Shown here: positions 16,986 through 30,266 of the stretch, in pieces
How positions within the stretch are numbered: the first letter of the stretch is position 1
How the letters are laid out: every line of letters starts with the position of its first letter
Assembly (NCBI RefSeq): GCF_000153105.1
Contig: NZ_CH672376.1
Coordinates: 3,363,148-3,427,147 of the forward strand
DNA: 64,000 nt
Direction of reading: 5' to 3'
From: Blastopirellula marina DSM 3645
Lineage (GTDB): Bacteria; Planctomycetota; Planctomycetia; Pirellulales; Pirellulaceae
Position numbers and translations under genes: made by a program
Notes under the pieces: model-generated
What the model was told of the DNA's origin: nothing
The model's input: only the letters and a program-made list of their open reading frames with translations
The model's database searches: none

Positions 16986-19358
16986 TTATTGGATATGAAC
17001 GGTGAAATCGTGTTCTTCCCAGCGATCTTCTTCAACCCAGTGGATGGTGAAGACGACGACGCCTGCTGGCGGAAGTTGCTCGATCGGCAAGTCCACGGTA
17101 AAGAGACCTAACGAGTTTTCCTGCGCTGCCAGATCCTGTCGCGTCTTCCACTGATCGGTGCTCCAGTGGATGACGGCCGCCGTATCGACGATGACTCGCA
17201 ACGGCTTTCCGGCTCGAATCTCGGCCGGCTGATGGGCGAGCGTCCAGATTTCGACGCGGTTCTGCGTCTTGTTGACCGCATACCGCTGATAGACCGACTC
17301 AATCCGATCGAATACGACGCCTTCGCTGCGACTGCGAACCAGCGAAATATATTCGGCATGCGCCCAACATAGCGGCATCGCCGATCCAGAAGGCTCGCCG
17401 AAGAACATTTCTTTTTCCGGCAGGTCTGCGGTGTCCCACACTTGTTCTGTCAACATTCCCCCAGCGTTCGCAAAGCCCTCGATCGCTTGGATGTAGAGAG
17501 AAGGATCACGGCCGGCCGCTAATTCGTAGTGACCGCGTTCTCCCGATAGCAGCGGCCAGCAGCGACCTTCTCCGGTTCCGTCGAAGGCGCGTCCGTCGAG
17601 ATGTTGGCCATAGCCGTCATGGTTATACCGTCGCCAGCCGGGGCCTTGCGGCAGATCCCGTTTGAGAACAGCGTCGATCACAGCGACTGAGTCGACGATA
17701 ATCGGATCGTCGGCCGCACGAATGCCCATCCGCACGAGTTGCAAAAAGCCGCCATCCACCACATTGCGCGCGGGGTGCTGTCCGCCGCCGTTGGCGACTT
17801 GAATGATGGCCGTATTCGGATCGGGCGAAATGCAGCCTGGCTGCGGACTGGCCGGAGTGATGCGGACATAATGACGCGGCTTTTCCGGCACAAGCTCACC
17901 GCGGTCGGTGACAGTCCAAGTCTCCAACGACGCCGCGGCCCAGTCTCCATAGTCGCGCAAAAACTGGGCGATCTCTCGATCTTTCCGCAGATCGGCGAAG
18001 TCGGCCGCGCAAATGATCGCGGAAATCACCGCGGCCAACGTCGACGGCGAATAACCTTCGTTCTCTTCCCAGCGCTCCTGCGCTGATACCGGACCATGCA
18101 AAATGAGGTAGCGGACGGCGCGGCGAACCATGATTGTGGGATCAAACTTCTCCAGTGCGGCGACCTGCTGCAAACGCCAAGCGAGAATTACCGGCGCTGC
18201 GATTTCGTCAAGCTGCACTCCTTTCCAATAGGCGGTGCCGTCGATCTTGCTGTTTTGAGGCATCCCGCCATCTTCGCTTTGAACGCATGACAACCAGGTC
18301 AACGCGCGCAGCGGCGATTCTTTTTCGCCACAGGCGAGCAGCGCTGTCGTGGTCTGCACCATATCGCGCGCCCAAACCAGGTGATAGCCGCCAGAGTCGC
18401 TATCGTCTTTCGTTTCGCCCCAAGGAATGCTCATCGACGCGACGGTCGCGCCGGCGAACATTTTGTCTTCGTGGGCCATCAAAATGCATTGGCTAAGTTG
18501 CACCAGATTGGCTGTCTGTGGGTCTTTTAACGGCATCGGATTATCGTAGGTCGTCCGCTTCCATTGCTCGACGTACCTTTTCCGCTGCACCTCGAAGGGA
18601 TAGATAAAGGCCTGCACTAACTGCGTCGCGGCGCTTTTGCAGGTATAGCCCATGCCGACGCCGACGTTAAATTCAAGCCCTTTCGAGAGATCGATTTCTC
18701 CCATCACCGCGATGTTGCCATCTTCGGCACGTTGGTACTCCCAGTCCATTTGGAAGTTGTCGGCCAGATCGCGCCAACCATCGCTGACCCCCACAAAGCC
18801 AACCGACGTTCGCGAGAAGTCGGTGTCGCAACCCAACACAAGATGCGCGAAGTCTCGATGAGCATGCAACAAGCGTTTGCCCCCCAGATTTATGCATTCG
18901 GCCGAATTGTGCTCTCCGGTATCGTTGAGATGCGGCGCGAGCAGGACATAGATCTTCAATTTGCCGTTTAACGACGTGTCTAGGATTTCGACCCTGACGT
19001 TCATCAGCACGACGTTGGAGTGCGGCTCACTGATCACTTCTTTGACAATACGATAACGCTCGTCCGGCGCCGTATTTGTCAAACGATAGAGGAGCGCGTG
19101 CGGTTCTGGGCGTTCAATACGATGCGTTAGATCGCGCTTTTCTTCGTGGAAAAACGTCTCGCCATCGGTGATCAACAACTGCATGTCACGCGTGTTGGGC
19201 GAATCGACATGCGGATAGTAGATCTCGTTGATGATCCCATGGCTAAGCGTGAACCAGACTCGGCTGCTCGTATGGTACGCGGTTCCGATGCCATCTTTGG
19301 CGCTCGACGTCCAACGAGGTTCAATTCCGGGCGCGCCAGGCGCGATGCGATCGTTCAT
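16986..19358 (-). CDS. Glucoamylase/glucodextranase-like GH15 enzyme
   Basis: 790 residues. The N-terminal beta domain (about 1-270) is glucodextranase/bacterial glucoamylase-like (RWTSSAKDGIGTAY, VWFTLSHGIINEIYYPHVD). The alpha/alpha barrel follows, with GGYHLVWARDMVQT, the probable general-acid Glu in WEENEGYSPSTLAA and the probable base Glu in CWPLLSGERGHYELAAG. The C-terminal tail is again beta-rich. It would release glucose from alpha-glucan ends. No signal peptide is seen, which suggests action on glycogen or imported maltodextrin in the cytoplasm. It lies 82 bp downstream of the SDR gene on the same strand, and the amylosucrase-like gene is in the same window; together they suggest alpha-glucan turnover, as inference. 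Confidence 0.9.
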   Translation of the reverse strand: MNDRIAPGAPGIEPRWTSSAKDGIGTAYHTSSRVWFTLSHGIINEIYYPHVDSPNTRDMQLLITDGETFFHEEKRDLTHRIERPEPHALLYRLTNTAPDERYRIVKEVISEPHSNVVLMNVRVEILDTSLNGKLKIYVLLAPHLNDTGEHNSAECINLGGKRLLHAHRDFAHLVLGCDTDFSRTSVGFVGVSDGWRDLADNFQMDWEYQRAEDGNIAVMGEIDLSKGLEFNVGVGMGYTCKSAATQLVQAFIYPFEVQRKRYVEQWKRTTYDNPMPLKDPQTANLVQLSQCILMAHEDKMFAGATVASMSIPWGETKDDSDSGGYHLVWARDMVQTTTALLACGEKESPLRALTWLSCVQSEDGGMPQNSKIDGTAYWKGVQLDEIAAPVILAWRLQQVAALEKFDPTIMVRRAVRYLILHGPVSAQERWEENEGYSPSTLAAVISAIICAADFADLRKDREIAQFLRDYGDWAAASLETWTVTDRGELVPEKPRHYVRITPASPQPGCISPDPNTAIIQVANGGGQHPARNVVDGGFLQLVRMGIRAADDPIIVDSVAVIDAVLKRDLPQGPGWRRYNHDGYGQHLDGRAFDGTGEGRCWPLLSGERGHYELAAGRDPSLYIQAIEGFANAGGMLTEQVWDTADLPEKEMFFGEPSGSAMPLCWAHAEYISLVRSRSEGVVFDRIESVYQRYAVNKTQNRVEIWTLAHQPAEIRAGKPLRVIVDTAAVIHWSTDQWKTRQDLAAQENSLGLFTVDLPIEQLPPAGVVVFTIHWVEEDRWEEHDFTVHIQ

Positions 19359-19440
19359 AGGGGAAAATCCAAGCGGAAGAGGTGCAGATTCGGTCGTCGA
19401 TGAACAAAGCGGCGGCAGGTGCGCAACCCATCATCGCCGA

Positions 19441-20223
19441 TTATCCTCCTTCGGCGAAGCTGGGATAGTCGGTCATGCCGCCGTCAATAAAGATGGTGCG
19501 GCCGGTTATATAGGATGCGACGTCGGACGCCAAAACCACCGTCATCTCGGCAATTTCTTTCGGCTCGCCGATCCGATTGAGCGGAATCTTGGTGAGCAAG
19601 TCTTTTCGTTGCTCGGGATCGCTCCAGACCGGCTTGTTAATTGCGGTTTTGATCGCGCCAGGTGCAATCGCCAAAACGCGAACTCCGTACGGCGCCGCTT
19701 CTTGCGCCAATGTTTTGGTCATCATCGCGACGCCCGACTTACTCGCGGCGTAAGCGCTATAACCCGACCAGGCAATCTCTTCATGGACCGAACTGACGCT
19801 AATCACCACGCCGCTGCTGGCCGGTATCATCCGTTTCAACGCTTGTTGAGCGCAATAAAAAGACCCCAGCATATTGACGTCAATCACCTTCCGCCAATCT
19901 TCGGGATCGATTTCCCAACTCATTACCCGCTTGCCGTCGATGCCGGCGTTGTTAATTAGGATGTCGATTCCACCATAGACGTCATCCATCTGTTCAAACA
20001 TCTTCACCACGGCCGACTGATCGGAGACATCCGCTTGAACCGCAGTCGCTTGGCCGCCGACGTCGGTGATTTGACGCACAATCTCTGCCGCAGCATCGGC
20101 GTGCGAACGATAATTGACCACCACTTTGGCCCCGGCGGCGCCCAACTCTACGGCGATCGCAGCGCCAATCCCAGAGCTTCCGCCGGTCACGAGGGCTCGT
20201 TTTCCATCAAGTCGGATTTCCAT
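19441..20223 (-). CDS. SDR-family sugar dehydrogenase, glucose 1-dehydrogenase-like
   Basis: 260 residues, classical short-chain dehydrogenase. The nucleotide motif TGGSSGIG is at 13-20, Arg39 in VNYRS fits NADP preference, NNAG is at 91-94, and the catalytic Ser near 144, Tyr158 and Lys162 lie in YAASK. The C-terminal YITGRTIFIDGG is typical of glucose 1-dehydrogenase and FabG relatives. Upstream of the glucoamylase gene, it could oxidise liberated glucose or galactose to the lactone, the first step of a De Ley-Doudoroff route with the DgoD/DgoK/DgoA-like genes in this window. Annotation as a 3-oxoacyl-ACP reductase-like SDR is equally possible from sequence alone. Confidence 0.82.
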   Translation of the reverse strand: MEIRLDGKRALVTGGSSGIGAAIAVELGAAGAKVVVNYRSHADAAAEIVRQITDVGGQATAVQADVSDQSAVVKMFEQMDDVYGGIDILINNAGIDGKRVMSWEIDPEDWRKVIDVNMLGSFYCAQQALKRMIPASSGVVISVSSVHEEIAWSGYSAYAASKSGVAMMTKTLAQEAAPYGVRVLAIAPGAIKTAINKPVWSDPEQRKDLLTKIPLNRIGEPKEIAEMTVVLASDVASYITGRTIFIDGGMTDYPSFAEGG

Positions 20224-20479
20224 ACATTCCTTGGGTGGTTGGCGTAAAATTCGTTTCCAGCGCTGTAGCGCCGACCGCGGCGGTTCCTCTTATTATAGGG
20301 CGCAGCGGGGGAACGCAGTCAGCTTCTAGCAGCTTCAACCAAATGGTGACCGCCGTGTTCCGCTCTTCTTTTCGCGCCACAGCGATTTCCGGTTCGCCAA
20401 AGAACTAGCGACGGAGAACGCGAAGTCGGAATAGCGATTGCAGACGGCCCATCGCTTGCAGCAGCAGAAAACGTTCCAG

Positions 20480-21271
20480 CTATTCACTGGACTCCGCAGG
20501 CGGCGTGCTGATCACGGCCAATTCTTCACAGACTGATTGCAGCAAGTTGGTCAGTTCCGGCGGAGCCGGTTGGCGGGGACTGCCTGCTGTTCGACTCTTC
20601 TGCAGCGCTACCAGCGCGTCATTGCGACTTTGCCGGATATGCCGCCGCATCCAGTACTGCGCCTTACGCGCATTCTTTCGCTGTACTTCGCGCGAGACGC
20701 GTGCATGCAGCAGCCAAACCCAGGCCAAGTGCCGCAACGTGCGTTCGTGCGTCGAATCGCCGAAGACGTAATCTCGAATGCGGCTATCGGTGACAATCTT
20801 CATCGCGAATTGGTTATTCGCCGCGCGCAACAGCAGCAAGTGAAACTTGAGATCGGAGACGAGAAACTGCTTGAGCGCGTCGCCGGTCATGACCTTCTCG
20901 CCCGAGTCACGCAGCGCCGAAATGGCCGCATGCATATTGTCGCATTGCAGTTTTAACTCGGTGCGTTCTCTGACGCTCATCCGTTTCGTCGCTTTGACAA
21001 CGGCTTGGCACTCCAGCGCTTCGCGCACGTCGAATGCGTCCAGCAGTTTCTTCCGATCGGGTCGGGCGATATAGGTGCCGCTGCCCACGACCTGATACAG
21101 AAGGCCTTCGCTTTCTAGCCGGCAAATCGCCTCTCGAATCGGCGTTCGGCTAATCCCCAACTTGCGGGCAAGTTCCGATTCCGAAATGCGGCGATCGCCC
21201 GACAAGGAATGATCCAACATGCATTGCAAGATGCGCTGATAAGCGACCGCACTGAGCGAAACGGAAGACAT
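20480..21271 (-). CDS. GntR-family (FadR/FCD-type) transcriptional regulator
   Basis: 263 residues. The N-terminal winged helix shows the GntR signature (SESELARKLGISRTPIREAICRLESEGLLYQV). An all-helical ligand-binding domain follows, with the FCD-like DLKFHLLLLRAANNQFA and a late His in MRRHIRQSRNDA that would complete a metal or ligand site. Such regulators usually repress sugar-acid or carboxylate catabolism. Its promoter at 21594-21623 has a TGTATACA palindrome over the -10, shared with the promoters at 26511-26543 and 26678-26706, so autoregulation and control of the sialidase operon and dgoKA are likely (inference). The leader before this gene would be about 315 nt. Confidence 0.9.
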   Translation of the reverse strand: MSSVSLSAVAYQRILQCMLDHSLSGDRRISESELARKLGISRTPIREAICRLESEGLLYQVVGSGTYIARPDRKKLLDAFDVREALECQAVVKATKRMSVRERTELKLQCDNMHAAISALRDSGEKVMTGDALKQFLVSDLKFHLLLLRAANNQFAMKIVTDSRIRDYVFGDSTHERTLRHLAWVWLLHARVSREVQRKNARKAQYWMRRHIRQSRNDALVALQKSRTAGSPRQPAPPELTNLLQSVCEELAVISTPPAESSE

Positions 21272-21798
21272 GCGATTTATGCCGGTAAAAAGCAGCGAAT
21301 TTGAACGTTGGAAAATACCGTTACGGAATAGTAACAGGATTTCGAGCGGCGCGGTTAGCCAAATTTTGAGACGCGCTCCGATTTGTCGTTGCGCTAGGCA
21401 ACCGTGGATTCTCTTGGTAGATCATCCTGCCGCATCCTCCATGCATACCAACGTACTACGGCTTGCGAACTCCGCCTCTCCTGGGAGTACTACAAAGCGA
21501 GGGAAGGATTCGAGCTTCGAGGCCCTGCGCTTCGCCGTTAAAACGGGGGAGGGAGCAACCGCTGGTTAATGCCTGCATACCGCATTAGCATTCTGTATAC
21601 ATAGGCTTGACGCACTGCGTCAAGCAAATCTTTTCAAGTTCCCATTTATCTTCAGAATGCGATTCTGGCAAATTTTCAGGCATTAACGTACCCAGCGCGA
21701 GCATGGATCTTCTACTTCGTGCGACTTTGCAAGCAGGACATGGGAACCGAGAGTTCACTTTCCGTCGCCTGGTATACAGCGATCAAGATGTCGGCGGT
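21272..21798. other. gntR leader and upstream region
   Basis: 527 bp without a convincing gene. It contains the gntR promoter/operator (21594-21623), a 19-bp perfect palindrome CTTGACGCACTGCGTCAAG (21606-21624, odd centre base) covering the -35, and a further operator-like CTGGTATACAG at 21769-21779, 20 bp beyond the transporter stop. The roughly 315-nt stretch between promoter and gntR is unusually long for a regulator leader; no known riboswitch was recognised. Confidence 0.55.
21594..21623 (-). promoter_or_regulatory. gntR promoter with TGTATACA operator
   Basis: Read on the minus strand: TTGACG (plus coordinates 21618-21623), an 18-bp spacer, then TATACA (21594-21599), which lies within the palindrome TGTATACA (21594-21601). 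The -35 also sits inside the 19-bp palindrome at 21606-21624. An operator overlapping the -10 is a classic repression layout. Confidence 0.65.
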
Positions 21799-23127
21799 TC
21801 AATTCATGAGCAGCTTCAATTGGCCAATAATCGTGACGCAGCCGGTATAGGTGATGAGCAACGAAAAGAGGAACGCGGCGGCTAGACCGGCGTTCAGCAG
21901 ATGGCCGGCGCGGTGCTCGCCCATCAGATCTTTGCGGTTCACCAAAACGATCATCGCGCCGATGCAGAGCGGCAGGACGAAGACTCCGCCGATTTGACTG
22001 ACGATCTGCGCTTGGACCGGATTGAACCCCAACAACGGAACCGTCAAACCAATCAGACAGGCGACCGCCGATAAAATGCGAAACATCGGAGTGGTCGTCT
22101 CTAGCTTGCCGTTGCGATAGTCGGCGATCAGCAGCGGCGCAACCATGATGATGGGAAACAACGAAGAAAGACCAGCGCTCAGCGTACCCGCAAAAAACAG
22201 CATCATCGCCAGTTTCCCGGCGGCCGGCTCGAGCGACTTCACCATATCCATGACTTGTTCGACGACTTGTCCCTGTTGATGCAATGCGCCGGTAGCACTG
22301 GCCATCACCGCCAGACTGACGATAAACATCAAGACCGCTGCGGTGATGCTGTCGCGCGATTGATCGCGCAAGTGATGAATATCCCACCCTTTGGCTTTGA
22401 CCAACAAAGGGCGAACCACAAACGTCGCCGCGGCCATGGTGGTGCCGACGATCGCCGGGACCAAAACAAACGCTCCCTTTTCGGTGGGCAAGTGAAACAT
22501 CAAGCCGGCAATAAAGTCGCTCGGCGCCGGCAACACAATGAACATCGAGCCCAGAAATGTGATCCCCATCAGGGTGACAAAAAAGACCAGCACCTTCTCA
22601 AAAAAGGTGTAAGTCCCCACCCAGACCAGCGCATAGAGCGCACTGACAATTCCTATCGCAATCAGCACGCGCGTCCAATAGTCCGACAGCGCCATGTCGG
22701 GGAAACGCTGATGCGCCACATCACTAATCATCGAAGAGCAAAGACCCAGGATTCCCATGATCGCGCCATACTGGGCCATCACGATCCCTGCGACCACCAG
22801 AACAGCGATCAACGGACCGCCTTGGAGGTGCGTACGAAAGCTATGGATGGCCGTTTCACCGGTCACGACCGCATAGCGACCGAACGCCTCCATTAAGATG
22901 CCCATAAAAAGGGAACAGAGGAGCAGCAACCAGAGCAGGTCGAGACCTAGCATCGAACCTGCTTTGCACATCGTGGTGACGCTGCCGGTCCCGACCGTAT
23001 AGCCGATGCAAAAAATGCCTGGGCCGACGGCAAGCACAACGCTCCAGAATCGGTTCAGCAGCGAGCGCTTTGGTGGCGGCGTTTCGGTAGTCAAGGGAGA
23101 AGGACGCATCGGATCGGGGACAATCAT
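21799..23127 (-). CDS. Nramp-superfamily transporter lacking metal motifs
   Basis: 442 residues, about 11 hydrophobic segments, with clear Nramp architecture: GPGIFCIGYTVGTGSVTTM in the first helix aligns with the family GPGxxxxxxYxDPGN region. The DPGN metal motif is replaced by GTGS, and in the sixth helix the MPH-type motif is replaced by a TTMAAATF sequence. The usual Asp, Asn and Met metal ligands are therefore missing, and transport of Mn or Fe is doubtful. It follows the sialidase-like gene by 33 bp and shares its probable operon with a DUF1559/lipoprotein pair, so uptake of an organic catabolite is a reasonable alternative. Inner membrane. Confidence 0.85.
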   Translation of the reverse strand: MIVPDPMRPSPLTTETPPPKRSLLNRFWSVVLAVGPGIFCIGYTVGTGSVTTMCKAGSMLGLDLLWLLLLCSLFMGILMEAFGRYAVVTGETAIHSFRTHLQGGPLIAVLVVAGIVMAQYGAIMGILGLCSSMISDVAHQRFPDMALSDYWTRVLIAIGIVSALYALVWVGTYTFFEKVLVFFVTLMGITFLGSMFIVLPAPSDFIAGLMFHLPTEKGAFVLVPAIVGTTMAAATFVVRPLLVKAKGWDIHHLRDQSRDSITAAVLMFIVSLAVMASATGALHQQGQVVEQVMDMVKSLEPAAGKLAMMLFFAGTLSAGLSSLFPIIMVAPLLIADYRNGKLETTTPMFRILSAVACLIGLTVPLLGFNPVQAQIVSQIGGVFVLPLCIGAMIVLVNRKDLMGEHRAGHLLNAGLAAAFLFSLLITYTGCVTIIGQLKLLMN

Positions 23128-23160
23128 CGCTGGCGAACTTTCAAAAATAGAGACGCCGCA

Positions 23161-24774
23161 TCAAAACAAGATGACGCCCCATTTGCCCAATTCCAGCGTT
23201 TCTCCCTCTTTCAGATTCTTCTGATAGGTCGTGCAAACATTGCCGGGCGCATTCGTTTCCGAAAACAAGAGAAACTCGGACAACTTCACCTTCGTGAACC
23301 CTTGCTTCAGCAGGTCGTCCGACAGACTGTCCTGATTGCGTCCCTCCGAAGGAGTGACCACCAGTACGACGCCGGCGGCTGTGCACTTCACCGAACTCTT
23401 TTCGATCGACGATTGAACAAACCGTTTTCCCGATAGCGTCTTTGGCAGATCGTGCAACTTGTAATTGCGATCGGTGAACAATTGGACGCCCAACTCTAGC
23501 GGTTGAATCTCGCCAATCTGGGGTTGAATCTCCGCAGCCGATGCGGTGCTGAGCGGCGCTCCGTCGTCGTTGGACGCAAACTCAATTTTCACCGGTTTCG
23601 CCTTCGCGGCTTTTCGCGTATTTAGGCCTGTCGCCTGATTGATCACCAAGCGCTGCCGCACGTGGTCGCTGACCGGCTTCTTCGCCAGTACGTCCGCTTC
23701 GGTGAAGGTTGTCATATAGATGTACTTTTGACCTTGTCGATCATAGTCGTAGGTTAGATAGACGACCCCGTCCTGCGACTCAGCGCCATCGGGATACGAT
23801 ACGCCGGATCGTTCATCAAGCAGTAGGCCTCCCTCCCACGATTGACCATCATCTTTCGAGAGGTAGGCGGTCAAATGCGAGCGACCCGTCTTTTCGTGCA
23901 GCGGTCCGTGCTTGACCAGCAATAGGTTTCCTGACTGGAGACGTCGGATGAAAAATCGGGAGGCCGTGTGTCGGATGTTCCAAGGAGTGACCGCCGTCCA
24001 GGTTTTTCCCCCATCGGTCGAATGGCTTTCGCCGATACCGTAGCTAGTGCGAACCAACTGCCAGAGCTCCCCATTTTTCCGCTGGACGATCATCGGCTCA
24101 TCGCAATTGCGATCTTTCGCTGCCGGCACATTGGCCGTCCCGCGCAGCGACCAGGTCTTCCCTTGATCGGTAGATGCGACCACGCGACAGCTATGGTCAC
24201 GACCCCAAATTGCCGTCGGCAACAGCCAATCACCGTTGGCCAGCGCTGTCGGCTTGCACATCATGACGCCGTTGTGAACTAGCTGCGGCGCCGACCATTT
24301 CGGCTGCGCGTCATCGGGGTTCTCAGTCGTCATCGCAAAGGTATGCGGATCTCCGCCGCCGCCGCGCGTCGCCTGACACCAGAAGAGCCAGAGTTTTCCG
24401 GAGGGATCGACCCACGGACAAGGATCGAACGCGCGAACCGGTCCTTCCTTATCAGGATCGATCACCACTTTGTTCTCGGACCAGGTTTTTCCTTCGTCAT
24501 CGCTGGAAACTAGCAGGATGTAATTATGGCGATCTTCCGTCACTCCACCGCCGTACCAGGTCGCCCATAGTCGCCCGCCGGGAGATCGCTCAAGACCAGA
24601 GATTCCTTGAAACATTCGGGCCGAATCGTCGTATTCGGATCCAGGCGCAAAATTGGCGGTCGGAGCGATCGCGGCCGCTGATGACTCGCTCTCTTCGGCG
24701 AGGGCCAAAGTAGAAAACGTCCCCCAGCAGGCCAAGAGACAGACAGTTTGAAAAAGACAGGTTCGTGGTTGCAT
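23161..24774 (-). CDS. Exported BNR-repeat protein, exo-alpha-sialidase-like
   Basis: About 537 residues. It has a signal peptide (CLFQTVCLLACWGTFSTLALA) and then a six-bladed beta-propeller with Asp-boxes SSDDEGKTW, STDQGKTW, STDGGKTW and a degenerate SKDDGQSW. The FRIP motif of true sialidases is replaced by GLERSPGGRLWATW, and no full arginine triad can be assigned by eye, so sialic acid specificity is unproven. The C-terminal 130 residues form an extra domain ending in LGKWGVILF, not recognised. The start at 24774 places the signal peptide correctly; an in-frame start at 24810 exists. It lies between the DUF1559 gene and the Nramp-like transporter in an apparent four-gene operon. Confidence 0.82.
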   Translation of the reverse strand: MQPRTCLFQTVCLLACWGTFSTLALAEESESSAAAIAPTANFAPGSEYDDSARMFQGISGLERSPGGRLWATWYGGGVTEDRHNYILLVSSDDEGKTWSENKVVIDPDKEGPVRAFDPCPWVDPSGKLWLFWCQATRGGGGDPHTFAMTTENPDDAQPKWSAPQLVHNGVMMCKPTALANGDWLLPTAIWGRDHSCRVVASTDQGKTWSLRGTANVPAAKDRNCDEPMIVQRKNGELWQLVRTSYGIGESHSTDGGKTWTAVTPWNIRHTASRFFIRRLQSGNLLLVKHGPLHEKTGRSHLTAYLSKDDGQSWEGGLLLDERSGVSYPDGAESQDGVVYLTYDYDRQGQKYIYMTTFTEADVLAKKPVSDHVRQRLVINQATGLNTRKAAKAKPVKIEFASNDDGAPLSTASAAEIQPQIGEIQPLELGVQLFTDRNYKLHDLPKTLSGKRFVQSSIEKSSVKCTAAGVVLVVTPSEGRNQDSLSDDLLKQGFTKVKLSEFLLFSETNAPGNVCTTYQKNLKEGETLELGKWGVILF

Positions 24775-24866
24775 GAGGATTCTCGTCGAGGGGGGGCGGT
24801 CAATCTCCATTCGAGAACACGAGAGCGGTGCTCGAAGAAGGATGACAATCTGAAGAAGGGTCAGGT

Positions 24867-25853
24867 TTACGGCAGGGTTTTCGGCTTGCCGCTGTTGCGA
24901 GCAGCCAACTGATTATAGAGGTCAAAGTTGATCGTTTCCGGGATAAAACGGACCGAACCGTCTCCCAGCAGAAAGTTGCAGCCGCCTGGATGTTGACTCG
25001 CGAAGTTGGCGTCGTTGTTTCCCCAAGTCCCGAGTATCGGTTGGTTCATCGGCGACGCAGTGTTGCGCGACGTAAAGTGACCCCATAAATACTGCGGACC
25101 GTCACTGGTTGTCTTACTAACGCCGTCAATCAGCGTGTTGGAGGCATTACGATATTCCTGCGTTCGCTTTTCGCCGACAGCGAACGTATTGGTTAGTCCA
25201 TCCGTCACCGACGCGAACGTCAATTGCCCCGGCTTGGTCCATAGCTTGCCGCTCGACTCGTAACGCGGCATGACGAACATCCCATTGCTCTTGGTCGAGT
25301 TCAGGTCGGCATGGACATGACTATAGGATCCGTCTGGCAATTCTCCGCCGCCGACAAAAGCGTAGTCTCCTTTATGGCGATCTTGCCGCGCGGACGAAAA
25401 CGAAGTGTCGGTCTTTTCGCCTGAACGTAGCGAAGGACAAAAATAGGCCGATATCGGCTGCGTGTTCTGTTCGACAGACTTGTTGTCCGCATGTTCAAAG
25501 TCTTGATAACGATTGTACGAATCGTGCAGCGCACCTTGCTCGATATAGGGCAATAGAACGACCCAACCGCTGAATCGACTATACAACCATTCACTCGCAG
25601 GGGTCGGCGAGGTCGAAGCACGTTGCGGAAACGTGTTGGCCGGAATCACGCCGAAGGTGTCGTGAAAGTTATGCACGCCCAGCCCGATTTGTTTCAGATT
25701 ATTCGTGCACTGCATCCGCCGAGCCGCTTCCCGCGCTTGCTGCACCGCAGGCAACAGCAGCGCAATTAAGACTCCGATGATGGCGATCACCACCAACAGT
25801 TCCACCAATGTAAAGCCAAATTTTTGTTTTCGAGAGCGACAGTCGTTCCGCAT
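24867..25853 (-). CDS. DUF1559 H-X9-DG pseudopilin-like protein (copy 2)
   Basis: 328 residues. The basic leader [12 protein letters not shown] precedes [20 protein letters not shown] and QQAREAARR, almost the same as copies 1 and 3, while the rest of the protein differs strongly. The C-terminal motif is the canonical form, [16 protein letters not shown]. It lies 92 bp upstream of the sialidase-like gene and 65 bp downstream of the paired lipoprotein gene. Here the lipoprotein comes first, the reverse of the order at 4754 and 53041. Envelope anchoring through the pilin-like helix is expected; molecular function unknown. Confidence 0.93.
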
Positions 25854-25918
25854 GGGAAACTCCTAAGCAGATGAACGATAGGAACTAAACCGAGGAGAAG
25901 ATGAAAGCAACGTGGCGA

Positions 25919-26350
25919 CTACAGATCCAAATCGATTACTTCTTTTTCTTTCACCACTTTGAACTGCAATGGGGTCGTTTGCAGACTCGTATATTCTTTG
26001 GGGGTCAACAGCTTTGGCTCCTGGTAACGAGGATCCTCTGCCTGGATGTCACTCGATTGTTTCTCGTACCATTTGACGATCACTTTGTACTCGGCAGGCT
26101 CGGCCTTTAATTGGTAGGCGCCATCCGACTGAATATTGGCCCGAATCGGCGGCAAGTCGGCGTTTAGCGGATTGAACAGCACGACGCCGCCGTCAACCGA
26201 TTTACCGTCAAAAGTGACCTTCCCTTGCACGTCCGAGCCCACATCCGGTTGGCCGCAGCCAACGGCGAACAAAAAAATGACCACCAACGGCCAACCACTG
26301 ATCTTTGTCGGCAGCGTCCGATGGGAAAGGGTGTTAACGACGCGTTGCAT
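25919..26350 (-). CDS. Small lipoprotein paired with DUF1559 (copy 2)
   Basis: 143 residues. A long N-terminal stretch leads to a hydrophobic segment and a lipobox (LFAVGC, Cys about 32). The mature part begins VQGKVTFDGKSVDGGVVLFNP, the same beta pattern as its two counterparts, and continues GAYQLKAEPAEYKVIVKWYE; it ends in a charged VVKEKEVIDLDL. First gene of the probable operon lipoprotein-DUF1559-sialidase-like-Nramp-like, driven from the promoter at 26511-26543 with a leader of about 155 nt. Function unknown. Confidence 0.82.
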   Translation of the reverse strand: MQRVVNTLSHRTLPTKISGWPLVVIFLFAVGCGQPDVGSDVQGKVTFDGKSVDGGVVLFNPLNADLPPIRANIQSDGAYQLKAEPAEYKVIVKWYEKQSSDIQAEDPRYQEPKLLTPKEYTSLQTTPLQFKVVKEKEVIDLDL

Positions 26351-26510
26351 GAGAAGAGCTCAAAAAAAGATGGAAAACGCGTGGCGAAATTGAAAACAAG
26401 GCTGCCCCCCCAAATTCGATCGTAATTCCTATCAAACCCGGGGGGCATGGGGATGCGAATACCGATCGCTCTTAGCGTCATCGGAGCGACTGCGGCAACC
26501 CGTCGCCCTT

Positions 26511-26543
26511 ACCTGTATACAGGTAGGTCCACGTCCTCGTCAA
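26511..26543 (-). promoter_or_regulatory. Operator-promoter of sialidase operon
   Basis: Minus strand: TTGACG (plus coordinates 26538-26543), an 18-bp spacer, TATACA (26514-26519). The -10 sits in a perfect 14-bp palindrome ACCTGTATACAGGT (26511-26524), typical in shape of a GntR-family operator. Confidence 0.7.
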
Positions 26544-26677
26544 CACAATTTCAAAAAAAACCATTTTTACGGTAGATCTAATCTGCCCTGAAATAGAGTA
26601 GTAACAGCACCAAACAACAACGTCAGTCGCCCAAACAGCCCTTCCAACTTGGGGATGACCAGCGATCCAAGGAAAGC

Positions 26678-26706
26678 TTGACCGCCAAACTTTTTGCCTG
26701 TATACA
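26678..26706 (+). promoter_or_regulatory. Operator-promoter of dgoKA
   Basis: TTGACC (26678-26683), a 17-bp spacer, TATACA (26701-26706), with TGTATACA at 26699-26706 followed by TGTA. It gives a dgoK leader of about 90 nt. Same architecture as the other two GntR-site promoters. Confidence 0.7.
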
Positions 26707-26803
26707 TGTATTCATTCGAGCATTTCGACCGGTCGGCGGGTGACCTTTTCGCAGCGTTATCGACCGAGTTGGCGATGTTGACTTCCCTTACCGCGCGGTC
26801 TCG

Positions 26804-27868
26804 ATGGCTCCATATTTTTTCAATTGCGACTGGGGGACAAGTCACTTTCGTTTGCGCCTTGTGCAACCTGCATCGGGAGCGATCGTTTTCGAACGAACGT
26901 CGTCGGAAGGAGCCGCCAATTTGGCGAAACGCGCAACGCAAGTCGATCGCGGCGCCCTCTACGCGAAAGTCCTGCGCCGTCATGTCGACGCGATCACGTC
27001 ACAGATCGCGATCGACGCCGAACTGACGCCGATCTTGATCTCCGGGATGGCCAGTTCCTCGATGGGTTGGAGCGATCTTCCCTACGCGACGCTCCCGTTT
27101 CGCCTCGATGGTTCTAACCTGCCGTGGCGACGACTCGATCCGCTAGCGGGCCATCCGCTCTTTCTCTTCTCTGGCGTTCGCGCCGATTGCGACGTCATGC
27201 GCGGCGAAGAGATGGAAGCCGTCGGTTTGGGGGTTCTCACTCCCGCTCTTCATCATGCGTCGGCGACCACTTGGCTAATTTTGCCTGGCACGCATTCCAA
27301 GCATCTATGCATTCAACACGGAACGATCGTTGACTTCCGTACCTACATGACCGGAGAGTTGTATCAGTTGCTGCAAGAGCAAAGCTCGTTGCGGCATTCT
27401 CTGCCGCTCGAGCGATCGATCGCATCCCAGCCAACGGCGTCCGAACAAACGGCGTTTTGTGATGGAGTCGAGATGGCGCGACGCGGCGAACTCACCAGCG
27501 TCTTGTTCCAAGTCCGCGCAAAACAACTCTTGCATGGGGATGCGGCTGCGGAGAGCGCCGCCCTGTTAAGCGGAATCATTATCGGTGATGAGCTTGCGTC
27601 GCTCGCACGACTGCGAAACGCCGATAGTTCGATCGTATTGTGCGCTAACGCAACGTTTCATCCCCTCTATCGACAAGCGTTGGACGTGCTGGGATTGGGG
27701 AGAGTCGTTACGGTCATTCCGCCACGCGATGTGGACCATCTTTCCGCACTCGGACAGTGGAAAGCATTTCAGGAAATCAATCGCGCGGCGCGAAACCACG
27801 ACTTGGATCCACTTGTCTGTTCCAGCGCGATCCCCTCCCCTGCTTCCGTCAAACCAACCTCCACGTAA
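26804..27868 (+). CDS. dgoK: 2-dehydro-3-deoxygalactonokinase
   Basis: 354 residues, matching the DgoK family: NCDWGTSHFRLRLVQ (N-terminal phosphate-binding part of the ASKHA-like fold), ILISGMASSSMGW, CDVMRGEEMEAVGL and ILPGTHSKHL. It would phosphorylate 2-keto-3-deoxygalactonate to the 6-phosphate in the cytoplasm. The next gene, 15 bp downstream, encodes the matching aldolase, which strongly supports the call. The product of the enolase-superfamily dehydratase at 11056 could be its substrate. The length is slightly above the usual 290-330 residues. Promoter with an operator at 26678-26706. Confidence 0.92.
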   Translation: MAPYFFNCDWGTSHFRLRLVQPASGAIVFERTSSEGAANLAKRATQVDRGALYAKVLRRHVDAITSQIAIDAELTPILISGMASSSMGWSDLPYATLPFRLDGSNLPWRRLDPLAGHPLFLFSGVRADCDVMRGEEMEAVGLGVLTPALHHASATTWLILPGTHSKHLCIQHGTIVDFRTYMTGELYQLLQEQSSLRHSLPLERSIASQPTASEQTAFCDGVEMARRGELTSVLFQVRAKQLLHGDAAAESAALLSGIIIGDELASLARLRNADSSIVLCANATFHPLYRQALDVLGLGRVVTVIPPRDVDHLSALGQWKAFQEINRAARNHDLDPLVCSSAIPSPASVKPTST

Positions 27869-27883
27869 GCGACCAACCGCCGC

Positions 27884-28525
27884 ATGACTGGCTTATTCGA
27901 CTGGGAACGATTTCAGAAGTTGCCGTTGGTTGGAATCTTACGCGGATTCGATCTCGCAGCTTCGCAACAAGCGGTCCGATCCGCCGCGGCCGGTGGACTG
28001 ACCACGGTTGAAATAACGCTGAATTCGCCCGCTGCGACCAGTCAGATTGAACGGCTTCGGCATGAATTTGGTGATCGGGTCAATGTCGGCGCCGGAACCG
28101 TCTGTACGGTCGAGGATGCTCGTCTAGCGATCCAATGCGGCGCGACATTCATCGTGACTCCTATCGTCGACGGTGATGTGATTCAGGTCTGCCGCGACGC
28201 CGATGTTCCGGCCTTTGTCGGCGCGATGACCCCCAGCGAAGTGTTCCAAGCATGGAAGTTGGGCGCAGCGATCGTTAAGATCTTTCCCGCCGACGCGTTG
28301 GGCCCCACCTATTTGCAAAGCCTGCGCGGTCCACTGCCGCAAATCTCGCTGATGCCAACCGGCGGCGTCACCGTCGAAAGCTTGGCCAGTTTTCATCGGG
28401 CCGGCGCTATCGCCTTCGGGATTGGCGGCCCCTTGTTCGACGCCCAACGAATTGCCGCCCAAGACTGGGACTGGATTCAGGAACAAACGACTCGCTTCGT
28501 CGCCGCCTATCGGGCGGTCGCTTAG
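27884..28525 (+). CDS. dgoA: 2-dehydro-3-deoxy-6-phosphogalactonate aldolase
   Basis: 213 residues, class I KDPG/KDPGal aldolase. Glu43 in TTVEITLNSP and the Schiff-base Lys132 in AAIVKIFPADALGP are in place, and the LRGPLPQISLMPTGGV phosphate-site segment follows. PADALGPTYLQSLRG is the DgoA-type version rather than the Eda type. It would split KDPGal into pyruvate and glyceraldehyde 3-phosphate. Preceded by dgoK with a 15-bp gap, so one transcript. The next gene is convergent, 91 bp away. Confidence 0.93.
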   Translation: MTGLFDWERFQKLPLVGILRGFDLAASQQAVRSAAAGGLTTVEITLNSPAATSQIERLRHEFGDRVNVGAGTVCTVEDARLAIQCGATFIVTPIVDGDVIQVCRDADVPAFVGAMTPSEVFQAWKLGAAIVKIFPADALGPTYLQSLRGPLPQISLMPTGGVTVESLASFHRAGAIAFGIGGPLFDAQRIAAQDWDWIQEQTTRFVAAYRAVA

Positions 28526-28616
28526 CTCCCGTTGATCGATGTTTCTGAAATCTCAACAGAGACTGTCCTCTCTTGGCTTCGAGCCTTGTCGTTCGACAGA
28601 AGAACCAATCGCTGAA

Positions 28617-30266
28617 CTATTCCGCCCCCGGCAGATGCGACTTTGCGGCGACGCTCCGCTTCATCAACAGAACCAGCCCGATCAACAGCAGGGCGACAAC
28701 GGCGAAGATAAAAAAGTCGTCAAAATACGCCAGCGAGGCCGCTTGTCGGGCTCGTTCGTTGGACAACGTCTGCAGCGCCATCTTATCGGCAAGCGCCGAA
28801 TCGCCGCAGAGCCGATAGAAATAGGCGTGCGCATCGTTCAAGTATTGATTGACCGCCGGATTTAAAGGATCGAGAAACTCGCCGATCCGACTGGTATGAA
28901 ATTGCTCGCGGCGAACCTCAATGGTCTGCGCGACCGACGTGCCGACGCTCCCTCCTTCGTTTCGCAGCAAAGCGAATAAACCGACGGCAGCGCCTCGTAA
29001 ATTTCGTGGAATGTACAAAAACGCGGCGACGTTCAGCGGAGCGAAAATCATCGACAGCCCAATGATCATTACGACCCGCGGCCAGACCGCTTGCCAAGGG
29101 CCAATCGCCAGCGTCATGAGCGACATCCAATAGCATCCCAGGGCAATCAAGACCAAGCCGCAGGCGACAAAGATCCGCGCATCCCATCCCCGCGTAATTA
29201 GAGGACCGACGATCAAGATCGTCGCGACGGCAAAAATACCTGACGGCGATAGCACCAAACCCGAAGCAAATGCGTCATAGCCAAATAACGTCTGCAGCAG
29301 ATTGGGCAATGTCGTACTAGCGGCGTACAGCACGCCGAAGGAAGAAAAAATAACCAGCGTAGAGATCAAAAAGTTACGTTCGGCCAGCGGTCGAAAATTA
29401 ACGACGGGATCGGCGATCCGCATCTCGTACCAAAACAGAAACGCCAGCCCGACGGCAAATGCGATTGCCAACGTCTGGACTCGCCAAAAGGGATCGCCAA
29501 ACCAATCCCACTCTTGCCCTTTGCTCATCAATACTTCCCACGCCGAGACGGTGATCGCCAATACGCCCAGCCCAATGCCATCCAGGCGCCAGCCTGCTTT
29601 GCGATGCTCCGCCGTTTCCAACTTCAAATAGGGAGGATCTTCCAGCACCGTCCACGCCGCCAAAGCGGCGAACGCTCCGATGGGAATGTTGATATAGAAG
29701 ATCCAGCGCCAGTCAAAATTGACCGTGAGATAACCGCCGAGCGTTGGACCTATCACTGGCGCAATCAACGCCGCGACGCCAAACACGGTCATCGCCGACC
29801 CCTGTTTTTCCTGCGGAAACGCATCCAACAACACGCCCTGGCTGGACGGCTGAAGTCCTCCGCCGGCCAGTCCCTGTAGTATTCGAAAACATATCAGCTG
29901 CTCTAAACTGGTCGCAAAGCCGCATAATGCGGACGCGAAAGTAAAGACCACGATCGAGCCGATAAAGTAGTTCCGCCGCCCGAGCCGTGACGACAGCCAA
30001 CCCGAGATCGGCAAAATGGTCGCATTGGCGGCCAGATAGCTGGTGATGACCCACTCGCTGTCGATCACCGCCGCCGAAAGTCCACCGGCGATATAGCGCA
30101 GCGCCACATTCGCGATCGTCGTGTCGAGCACTTCCATGAACGTGGGGATGACCACGATCGCTGCGATCACCCAAGGATTGACCGAGCGAAACATCGTCGC
30201 GGATGCGGCCGCCCGTGGAACGTCGGTCTTGGCGCCCAGCAAGAAGAAACGTAGTGCGCCGATCAT
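28617..30266 (-). CDS. DHA2-family MFS multidrug efflux transporter, EmrB-like
   Basis: About 549 residues with some 14 membrane helices. Signatures are TFMEVLDTTIANVALRYIAGGL (helix 1), SSRLGRRNYFIGSIVVFT, RILQGLAGGGLQPSSQGVLLD and PVIGPTLGGYLTVNFDWRWIFYINIPIG, all typical of the DHA2/EmrB group. The ATG at 30266 overlaps the stop of the adaptor gene as ATGA, which fixes the start and implies translational coupling; the longer frame to 30284 is unlikely. It would export hydrophobic compounds by proton antiport, working with the adaptor encoded just upstream. Confidence 0.92.
   Translation of the reverse strand: MIGALRFFLLGAKTDVPRAAASATMFRSVNPWVIAAIVVIPTFMEVLDTTIANVALRYIAGGLSAAVIDSEWVITSYLAANATILPISGWLSSRLGRRNYFIGSIVVFTFASALCGFATSLEQLICFRILQGLAGGGLQPSSQGVLLDAFPQEKQGSAMTVFGVAALIAPVIGPTLGGYLTVNFDWRWIFYINIPIGAFAALAAWTVLEDPPYLKLETAEHRKAGWRLDGIGLGVLAITVSAWEVLMSKGQEWDWFGDPFWRVQTLAIAFAVGLAFLFWYEMRIADPVVNFRPLAERNFLISTLVIFSSFGVLYAASTTLPNLLQTLFGYDAFASGLVLSPSGIFAVATILIVGPLITRGWDARIFVACGLVLIALGCYWMSLMTLAIGPWQAVWPRVVMIIGLSMIFAPLNVAAFLYIPRNLRGAAVGLFALLRNEGGSVGTSVAQTIEVRREQFHTSRIGEFLDPLNPAVNQYLNDAHAYFYRLCGDSALADKMALQTLSNERARQAASLAYFDDFFIFAVVALLLIGLVLLMKRSVAAKSHLPGAE

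Follow-up and report, generated by a model that had tools for sequence, protein, structure and literature searches.

A rare palindrome at three promoters of one locus

Blastopirellula marina DSM 3645 (assembly GCF_000153105.1, contig NZ_CH672376.1; a 6.66-Mb genome, labelled G000 below) carries a locus in which the gene for an FCD-type GntR regulator (gntR) lies close to an operon for a small lipoprotein, a DUF1559 protein, a sialidase-like hydrolase and an Nramp-like transporter, and to the sugar-acid genes dgoKA. The lipoprotein-DUF1559-sialidase-nramp operon and dgoKA constitute two divergent transcripts around a common operator region. Within the window, meaning the whole stretch of 64,000 nucleotides that was analyzed, a palindromic element lies at the candidate promoters of both operons and of gntR. 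Judging from the sequence, it is highly likely that the GntR protein binds an extended form of this palindrome, ACCnGTATACnGGT, as a dimer over the -10 element, represses the two divergent operons as well as its own gene and is released by a sugar acid. At this locus one repressor very probably controls how a sugar acid is taken up and broken down.

The predicted operator of the lipoprotein operon, ACCTGTATACAGGT (26511-26524), is a perfect 14-bp palindrome with the core TGTATACA at 26514-26521. The predicted dgoKA operator, GCCTGTATACATGT (26696-26709, core at 26699-26706), is identical in the congener G003. At gntR the core (21594-21601, within 21591-21604) lies over a candidate -10 element and is kept in G003, with flanks that deviate from the consensus. 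Candidate -35 elements stand at the expected distance from a TATACA in all three cases: TTGACG at 21618-21623 for gntR and at 26538-26543 for the lipoprotein operon (both on the minus strand with an 18-bp spacer) and TTGACC at 26678-26683 for dgoKA (plus strand, 17-bp spacer). These positions, the spacing of TTGAC(G/C) and TATACA and the perfect palindrome had been described in an original prediction made from the letters of the sequence, and they proved correct.

The core is rare. The window has three copies, whereas 100 shuffles averaged 0.08 and never reached three. Genome-wide there are six copies, half of them at the locus, and four matches to the reversed-pattern control. The probability of finding three of the six in a 5.1-kb span is about 9e-9 for the named span and about 4e-5 for any span of equal length. 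Judged from lists of open reading frames (ORFs), four of the six copies are intergenic (three of these at the locus), one lies inside a likely gene and one at an ORF start. The original prediction was to be refuted by a palindrome as frequent inside genes as in promoters, and the placement of the six copies does not refute it. The three copies outside the locus lie in a 252-amino-acid ORF of helix-turn-helix type, in an intergenic region and in the first codons of a 254-amino-acid ORF (named by eye). The copy at an ORF start (G000:C2:4049460-4049479, L046:4961-4980, minus strand) is upstream of an ImuB-like ORF and within AGTGTACGTATGTATACACT. This sequence resembles an independent operator of inverted-repeat type that an SOS regulator might use.

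Scans of the B. marina genome yielded no further regulon member that could be named outside the locus. With up to one mismatch, ACCNGTATACNGGT was found twice in B. marina (at the locus and inside an ORF) and four times as reversed control; in G003, one match at one mismatch stands against three in the control. Allowing three mismatches to ACCTGTATACAGGT gave 54 matches against 70 for the reversed pattern, making this loose search unusable for finding regulon members.

The sites are conserved where their surroundings are not. G003 has the whole locus, with ten proteins 83-97% identical (GntR 95%), and holds all three TGTATACA cores at equivalent places, which account for three of its five genomic copies. 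Overall identity between B. marina and G003 is only 65% in one intergenic region and 77% in the other, and despite this divergence the palindromes, TTGAC elements and spacer lengths persist; the sequence of the gntR spacer is altered with both ends retained. In the congeners G001 and G002 the best GntR matches are a paralog (36% and 35% identical), the exact extended site is absent and TGTATACA occurs three times in each against three and two control matches.

The promoter geometry was compared across 19 sites chosen by their match to GTATAC or the palindrome, a set that omits the near-copy G003 and divergent second readings. TTGAC occurs 16-18 bp upstream of TATAC at 10 of the 19 (shuffle mean 0.056) and on the opposite side at none, placing the palindrome centre where a -10 element belongs in several lineages.

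The extended palindrome accompanies one clade of GntR regulators

We compared the locus with 396 genomes of the order and with further genome contigs, which yielded GntR orthologs of 38-50% identity. Near most gntR orthologs we found AACC(A/G)GTATAC(A/C/T)GGTT or a close form, and it was footprinting across these relatives that lengthened the motif to ACCnGTATACnGGT. Other planctomycetes, Verrucomicrobiota and Kiritimatiellota have the same extended palindrome next to their gntR orthologs and to sialidase-like genes.

Exact ACCNGTATACNGGT occurred 11 times in eight of 11 genomes and its reversed pattern not at all. Five of these sites are upstream of gntR (G318, G406, G407, G408 and G410; in G407 and G410 the gntR start codon was placed by homology) and two are the window-type site of B. 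marina and G003. One further site precedes a gene with a BNR_2 domain (G408:C28), and another precedes a gene that has no Pfam hit but shares the C-terminal domain of the window's sialidase-like enzyme (G318:C685, E 7e-19). Exact sites inside ORFs in G012 and G406, where the regulator is present, were taken as chance.

We built a tree from 40 GntR proteins, taking matches with fetched loci rather than every GntR of a genome; in it, 12 members from the PVC group form a clade with support of 99/95. The palindrome or its core is present in the loci of 11 of the 12. An exact site was found in those of the window, G003, G318, L073, L074, L075, L077, G125 and G139; in G125 and G139 it lies elsewhere in the locus, and the site in front of gntR deviates at one position in G125 and at two in G139. 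Two members have sites with one mismatch: L076, and G120 with two such sites upstream of gntR.

Across the order, exact sites were found in 18 of the 396 genomes (20 sites) and reversed-control matches in 19 (22 sites, counted by eye), a high background against which the motif shows no overall enrichment. Its distribution follows the clade: with membership read from the tree, exact sites occur in five of the six clade-member genomes and in 13 of the remaining 390 (Fisher p 6e-7), and each of the five has at least one site within about 10 kb of gntR. Of the 14 non-clade sites in 13 genomes, 10 lie inside ORFs of at least 197 amino acids, one inside a 130-amino-acid ORF and one before a sialidase homolog (G367); the other two are intergenic, and the genes around them look unrelated by eye.

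Gene contexts point to ketodeoxy sugar acid catabolism

The genes of the locus gain meaning from their company elsewhere. Downstream of the operator region lie dgoK (26804-27868, plus strand; 2-keto-3-deoxygalactonokinase family, Pfam DGOK 205.5 bits) and dgoA/eda (27884-28525, plus strand; KDPG/KHG aldolase family, Pfam Aldolase 126.8 bits, NCBIfam TIGR01182 over cut-off). The opposing operon encodes, all on the minus strand, a 143-amino-acid lipoprotein-like protein (25919-26350; no Pfam hit, called a lipoprotein by eye), a DUF1559 protein with a prepilin-type N-terminus (24867-25853; Pfam), a sialidase-like propeller hydrolase (BNR_2) with an additional C-terminal domain (23161-24810; Pfam, profile alignment and model) and an Nramp-like transporter (21799-23127; Pfam Nramp 173.5 bits).

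The original prediction had named the last two proteins sialidase and Nramp. Pfam places them in these families; the absence of the first triad arginine and of the DPGN and MPH motifs makes the names doubtful and probably misleading. The hydrolase has an Asp-box propeller fold (Pfam; model from four sequences, with blocks of predicted local distance difference test scores (pLDDT) of 60-93 over residues 51-390). When its profile is aligned with solved sialidases, the first triad arginine (FRIP) is matched by Gly69 (FQGI), and R254, R310 and Y339 align with the remaining triad arginines and the tyrosine. By this alignment the GH33-type three-arginine carboxylate triad is incomplete in gene 23161-24810. 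Among six genomes searched for an E. coli-type NanA (TIGR00683), all six gave superfamily matches and none exceeded the cut-off. In an alignment to solved Nramps, the transporter reads GYTVGTGSVT in helix 1, with VGTG in place of DPGN and MAAAT in place of MPH, the two motifs that bind metal in Nramp proteins.

Parts of the gene set recur in one run in some distant relatives. G367 has two DUF1559 genes, a lipoprotein gene, an exact site, a sialidase homolog (47.5%), a PfkB kinase gene and an Nramp-like gene (48.9%). Its lipoprotein matches that of B. marina at 25% identity over 134 columns (E 3e-7 in a single comparison). On its 7.5-kb contig G257 has a single run of DUF1559, lipoprotein, sialidase (45%), aldolase, PfkB kinase and Nramp-like (49.5%) genes, with no further enzyme in the run. 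A sialidase-type sequence accompanies the kinase and Nramp-like genes in G229 and, by way of a contig-end fragment, in G354; G286 has the kinase with the Nramp-like gene, and G318 has gntR, BNR_2 and Nramp-like genes. We surveyed Nramp-like matches at E <=1e-60, which occur in 19 of the 396 genomes, with wider stretches for 12 of the 19. A sialidase-type sequence lies near the Nramp-like gene in seven (G000, G003, G367, G318, G257, G229 and G354). The PfkB kinase, which matches models of 2-keto-3-deoxygluconate (KDG) and 2-keto-3-deoxygalactonate (KDGal) kinases below their cut-offs, is near five of the 19 matches, a neighbourhood suggesting that the Nramp-like protein may be a sugar-acid carrier.

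In G125 and G139 the gntR ortholog is near genes for a dehydratase, an aldehyde dehydrogenase, a 2-keto-3-deoxy-6-phosphogluconate (KDPG) aldolase, a PfkB kinase, a DUF1559 protein and a sulfatase (assigned by Pfam in G125 and by likeness in G139), and the two loci have four and two sites, respectively. The element common to these contexts is the catabolism of ketodeoxy sugar acids, and it is on this ground that we propose such an acid as the GntR effector. A more specific picture is tentative and rather unlikely to hold in full: the operator may mark an undescribed catabolic module in which the propeller enzyme cleaves a glycan to free a 2-keto-3-deoxy sugar acid of six carbons or something closely related, the Nramp-fold protein without its metal site imports this acid in place of a metal ion, a KDG/KDGal kinase and an aldolase degrade it directly, and the acid or a precursor signals to GntR.

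Proteins that otherwise differ from the sialidase-like enzyme share its C-terminal domain (about residues 423-549) in Kiritimatiellota (L073, L075 and L127) and in the planctomycete G318 (L128), and each of these loci holds the GntR palindrome.

A model of repression and its alternatives

We infer the following mechanism. A dimer of the FCD GntR (20480-21271) would bind ACCnGTATACnGGT, the central GTATAC of which doubles as part of each promoter's predicted -10 element, and GntR binding would thus block RNA polymerase. Repression would be strong for the lipoprotein-DUF1559-sialidase-nramp and dgoKA transcripts and weaker for gntR, where it would act via the core site, perhaps aided by two neighbouring weak sites. 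Release would be brought about by a sugar acid to which the imported substrate is converted; the likeliest candidates are a 2-keto-3-deoxy sugar acid and the aldonate that precedes it.

The weak sites are GCCTGCATACCGCA (21571-21584), 20 bp from the gntR core, which scores 5.3 bits (8.6 bits at equal spacing in G003), and CCTGGTATACAGCG (21768-21781), a further GTATAC site between the nramp-like gene and gntR of which TGGTATACAG (21770-21779) is identical in G003. GTATAC occurs five times in the window, four times in the locus. Extra half-sites are reported 7-12 nt from GntR operators (PMC4494728), which differs from the 20 bp found here. Secondary sites near 21 operators number four against a shuffle expectation of 1.46, and the 20-bp spacing was seen in the B. 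marina genus only, which leaves the role of the weak sites a guess.

A local regulon of gntR, the sialidase operon and dgoKA, as originally predicted, is supported by the palindromes beside gntR orthologs and by the gene runs of distant relatives; the details of the prediction fared unevenly. The three sites share a core and are otherwise no equals: leave-one-out profile scores are 22.0 bits for the lipoprotein operon, 14.1 for dgoKA and 0.8 for gntR. Control of gntR by its own product is favoured by the conservation of the core in G003 and by orthologs with exact upstream palindromes, and is weakened by the window site being the poorest of the three. As to the promoters, TATACA is a candidate -10 element by virtue of its distance from TTGAC and of the conservation of that distance.

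Several observations weigh against the proposed regulation, the module or both. TATACA is an imperfect -10 element that matches at four of six positions and lacks the T at position 6. Scanned strictly for sigma-70 promoters, 21200-26900 returned none (3.0 in shuffles). The gntR core, with its 0.8 bits, is 319 bp upstream of the start codon, and secondary sites are few. On the 11.8-kb contig of G012, a member of the clade, no credible site was found. The bare GTATAC occurs within 450 bp upstream of five non-clade GntR genes (L058, L059, L062, L068 and L070), which means that the core by itself does not single out the window GntR. In G257, G354, G286 and G229, where the kinase-nramp pair is present (in three with a sialidase-type sequence), the stretches hold no site with up to two mismatches, and the G229 locus has an AraC-type regulator; the module is therefore not always under GntR control. 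Finally, eight of the 12 wider Nramp stretches (G162, G219, G192, G240, G263, G170, G285 and G199) and the short Nramp loci of G306, G139 and G275 contain neither the kinase nor a sialidase-type sequence.

Could the palindromes serve another regulator, such as the FCD-GntR paralog at G000:C2:2818085 (37% identical)? Operator cores common to related GntR proteins are described (PMC4494728), and the GTATAC before five non-clade GntR genes fits such sharing. The extended motif tracks the clade of the window GntR and not the paralog, which is present in G001 and G002 without any exact extended site. Moreover, none of 10 paralog-type loci has GTATAC in the 450 bp upstream. In five of the 10 (L012, L051, L052, L054 and L056, with a conserved FCD GntR paralog), the best upstream match is another palindrome, (A/G)CTGGTATCCCAG(A/C). 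We regard control by another regulator as very improbable. Hardly any credence is due to the view that the sites resemble each other merely as -10 elements, with TGTATACA not an operator. TTGAC at 17-18 bp in all three promoters does suggest that some of the likeness is promoter sequence, but the palindrome in its full form goes with a single GntR clade and stands without TTGAC at the expected place at nine of 19 sites, a count that also tells against the promoter reading. In addition, the ACC/GGT arms outside the -10 element are kept in 15-18 of the 19 sites, partly a circular measure as sites were chosen by match.

That GntR activates some targets, or that gntR is not autoregulated and only the two divergent operons are targets, is unlikely, although the weak and distant gntR site speaks for it. 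An operator over the -10 element is hard to reconcile with activation, and exact palindromes lie upstream of five gntR orthologs (G318, G406, G407, G408 and G410). Repression of all three units by GntR remains our preferred account.

The 300-nt gntR leader contains a hairpin, CTGTTAC-TATTCC-GTAACGG followed by TATTTT (21318-21337), that is almost unchanged in G003 and is a possible attenuator or terminator. A strong hairpin, GCTTGACGCACTGCGTCAAGC (21605-21625), overlaps the gntR -35 element and is not kept in G003. An Rfam scan of 19000-30000 gave no match.

Relation to known GntR systems

The regulator itself (263 amino acids, 20480-21271, minus strand) exceeds the Pfam cut-offs for GntR (PF00392, 48.8 bits against 27) and FCD (PF07729, 49.9 against 24.3). 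D140, H144, H189 and H211, which we take to be the FCD metal ligands, are invariant in 11 of 11 aligned orthologs. An AlphaFold2 model has a mean pLDDT of 78.1. Among solved structures, 7xp0, titled PmiR, is the best match to the sequence profile.

The type of regulon is already known; the sugar-acid module under its control may be undescribed, and what the regulon controls is the part worth following. Searches of an open-access collection gave no title or abstract on an operator of a planctomycete GntR regulator, and among the titles listed none concerned a sugar-acid module with sialidase-like and Nramp-like proteins; one dealt with the evolution of sialic acid catabolism (PMC2693436). A planctomycete GntR now comes with a predicted site, three candidate target promoters and homologous sites spanning three phyla. 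Its regulon hints at a pathway for sugar acids that may use a protein of the Nramp fold as carrier of an organic acid.

NanR of Escherichia coli is an FCD GntR of sialic acid metabolism that recognizes direct GGTATA repeats (PMC8012715; PMC4494728). We rejected the window GntR as a NanR equivalent: NCBIfam gave only matches far below cut-off (NanR 30.8 bits against 260), and B. marina has inverted palindromes in place of direct repeats. NanR is also a weaker structural match to the model. DgoR of Escherichia coli, a GntR/FadR autorepressor of D-galactonate metabolism, acts on inverted repeats overlapping the promoter (PMC12288454). It has two closely spaced repeats at one operon; the candidate operator in B. 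marina adjoins dgoKA, of the ketodeoxygalactonate kinase and aldolase families.

The GTATAC core, present in 19 of 19 sites (chosen by core), fits the FCD GntR consensus NyGTM-N0-1-KACNy (PMC4494728). The top Foldseek match of the model is Atu1419 on palindromic DNA (E 2.8e-8, TM-score 0.48), with a root-mean-square deviation of 10.5 indicating a different domain orientation. Atu1419 is the VanR-type FCD GntR of hydroxycinnamate degradation in Agrobacterium fabrum; its operator ATGTATACAT overlaps the -10 boxes of two target promoters, and a second palindrome lies in its own promoter region (PMC7797058). The two proteins are 21% identical and belong to different pathways, and the arms read ACC...GGT here and AT...AT in Atu1419. 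Yet Atu1419, the nearest solved structure to the model, is likewise an FCD GntR with a GTATAC-core palindrome over the -10 element.

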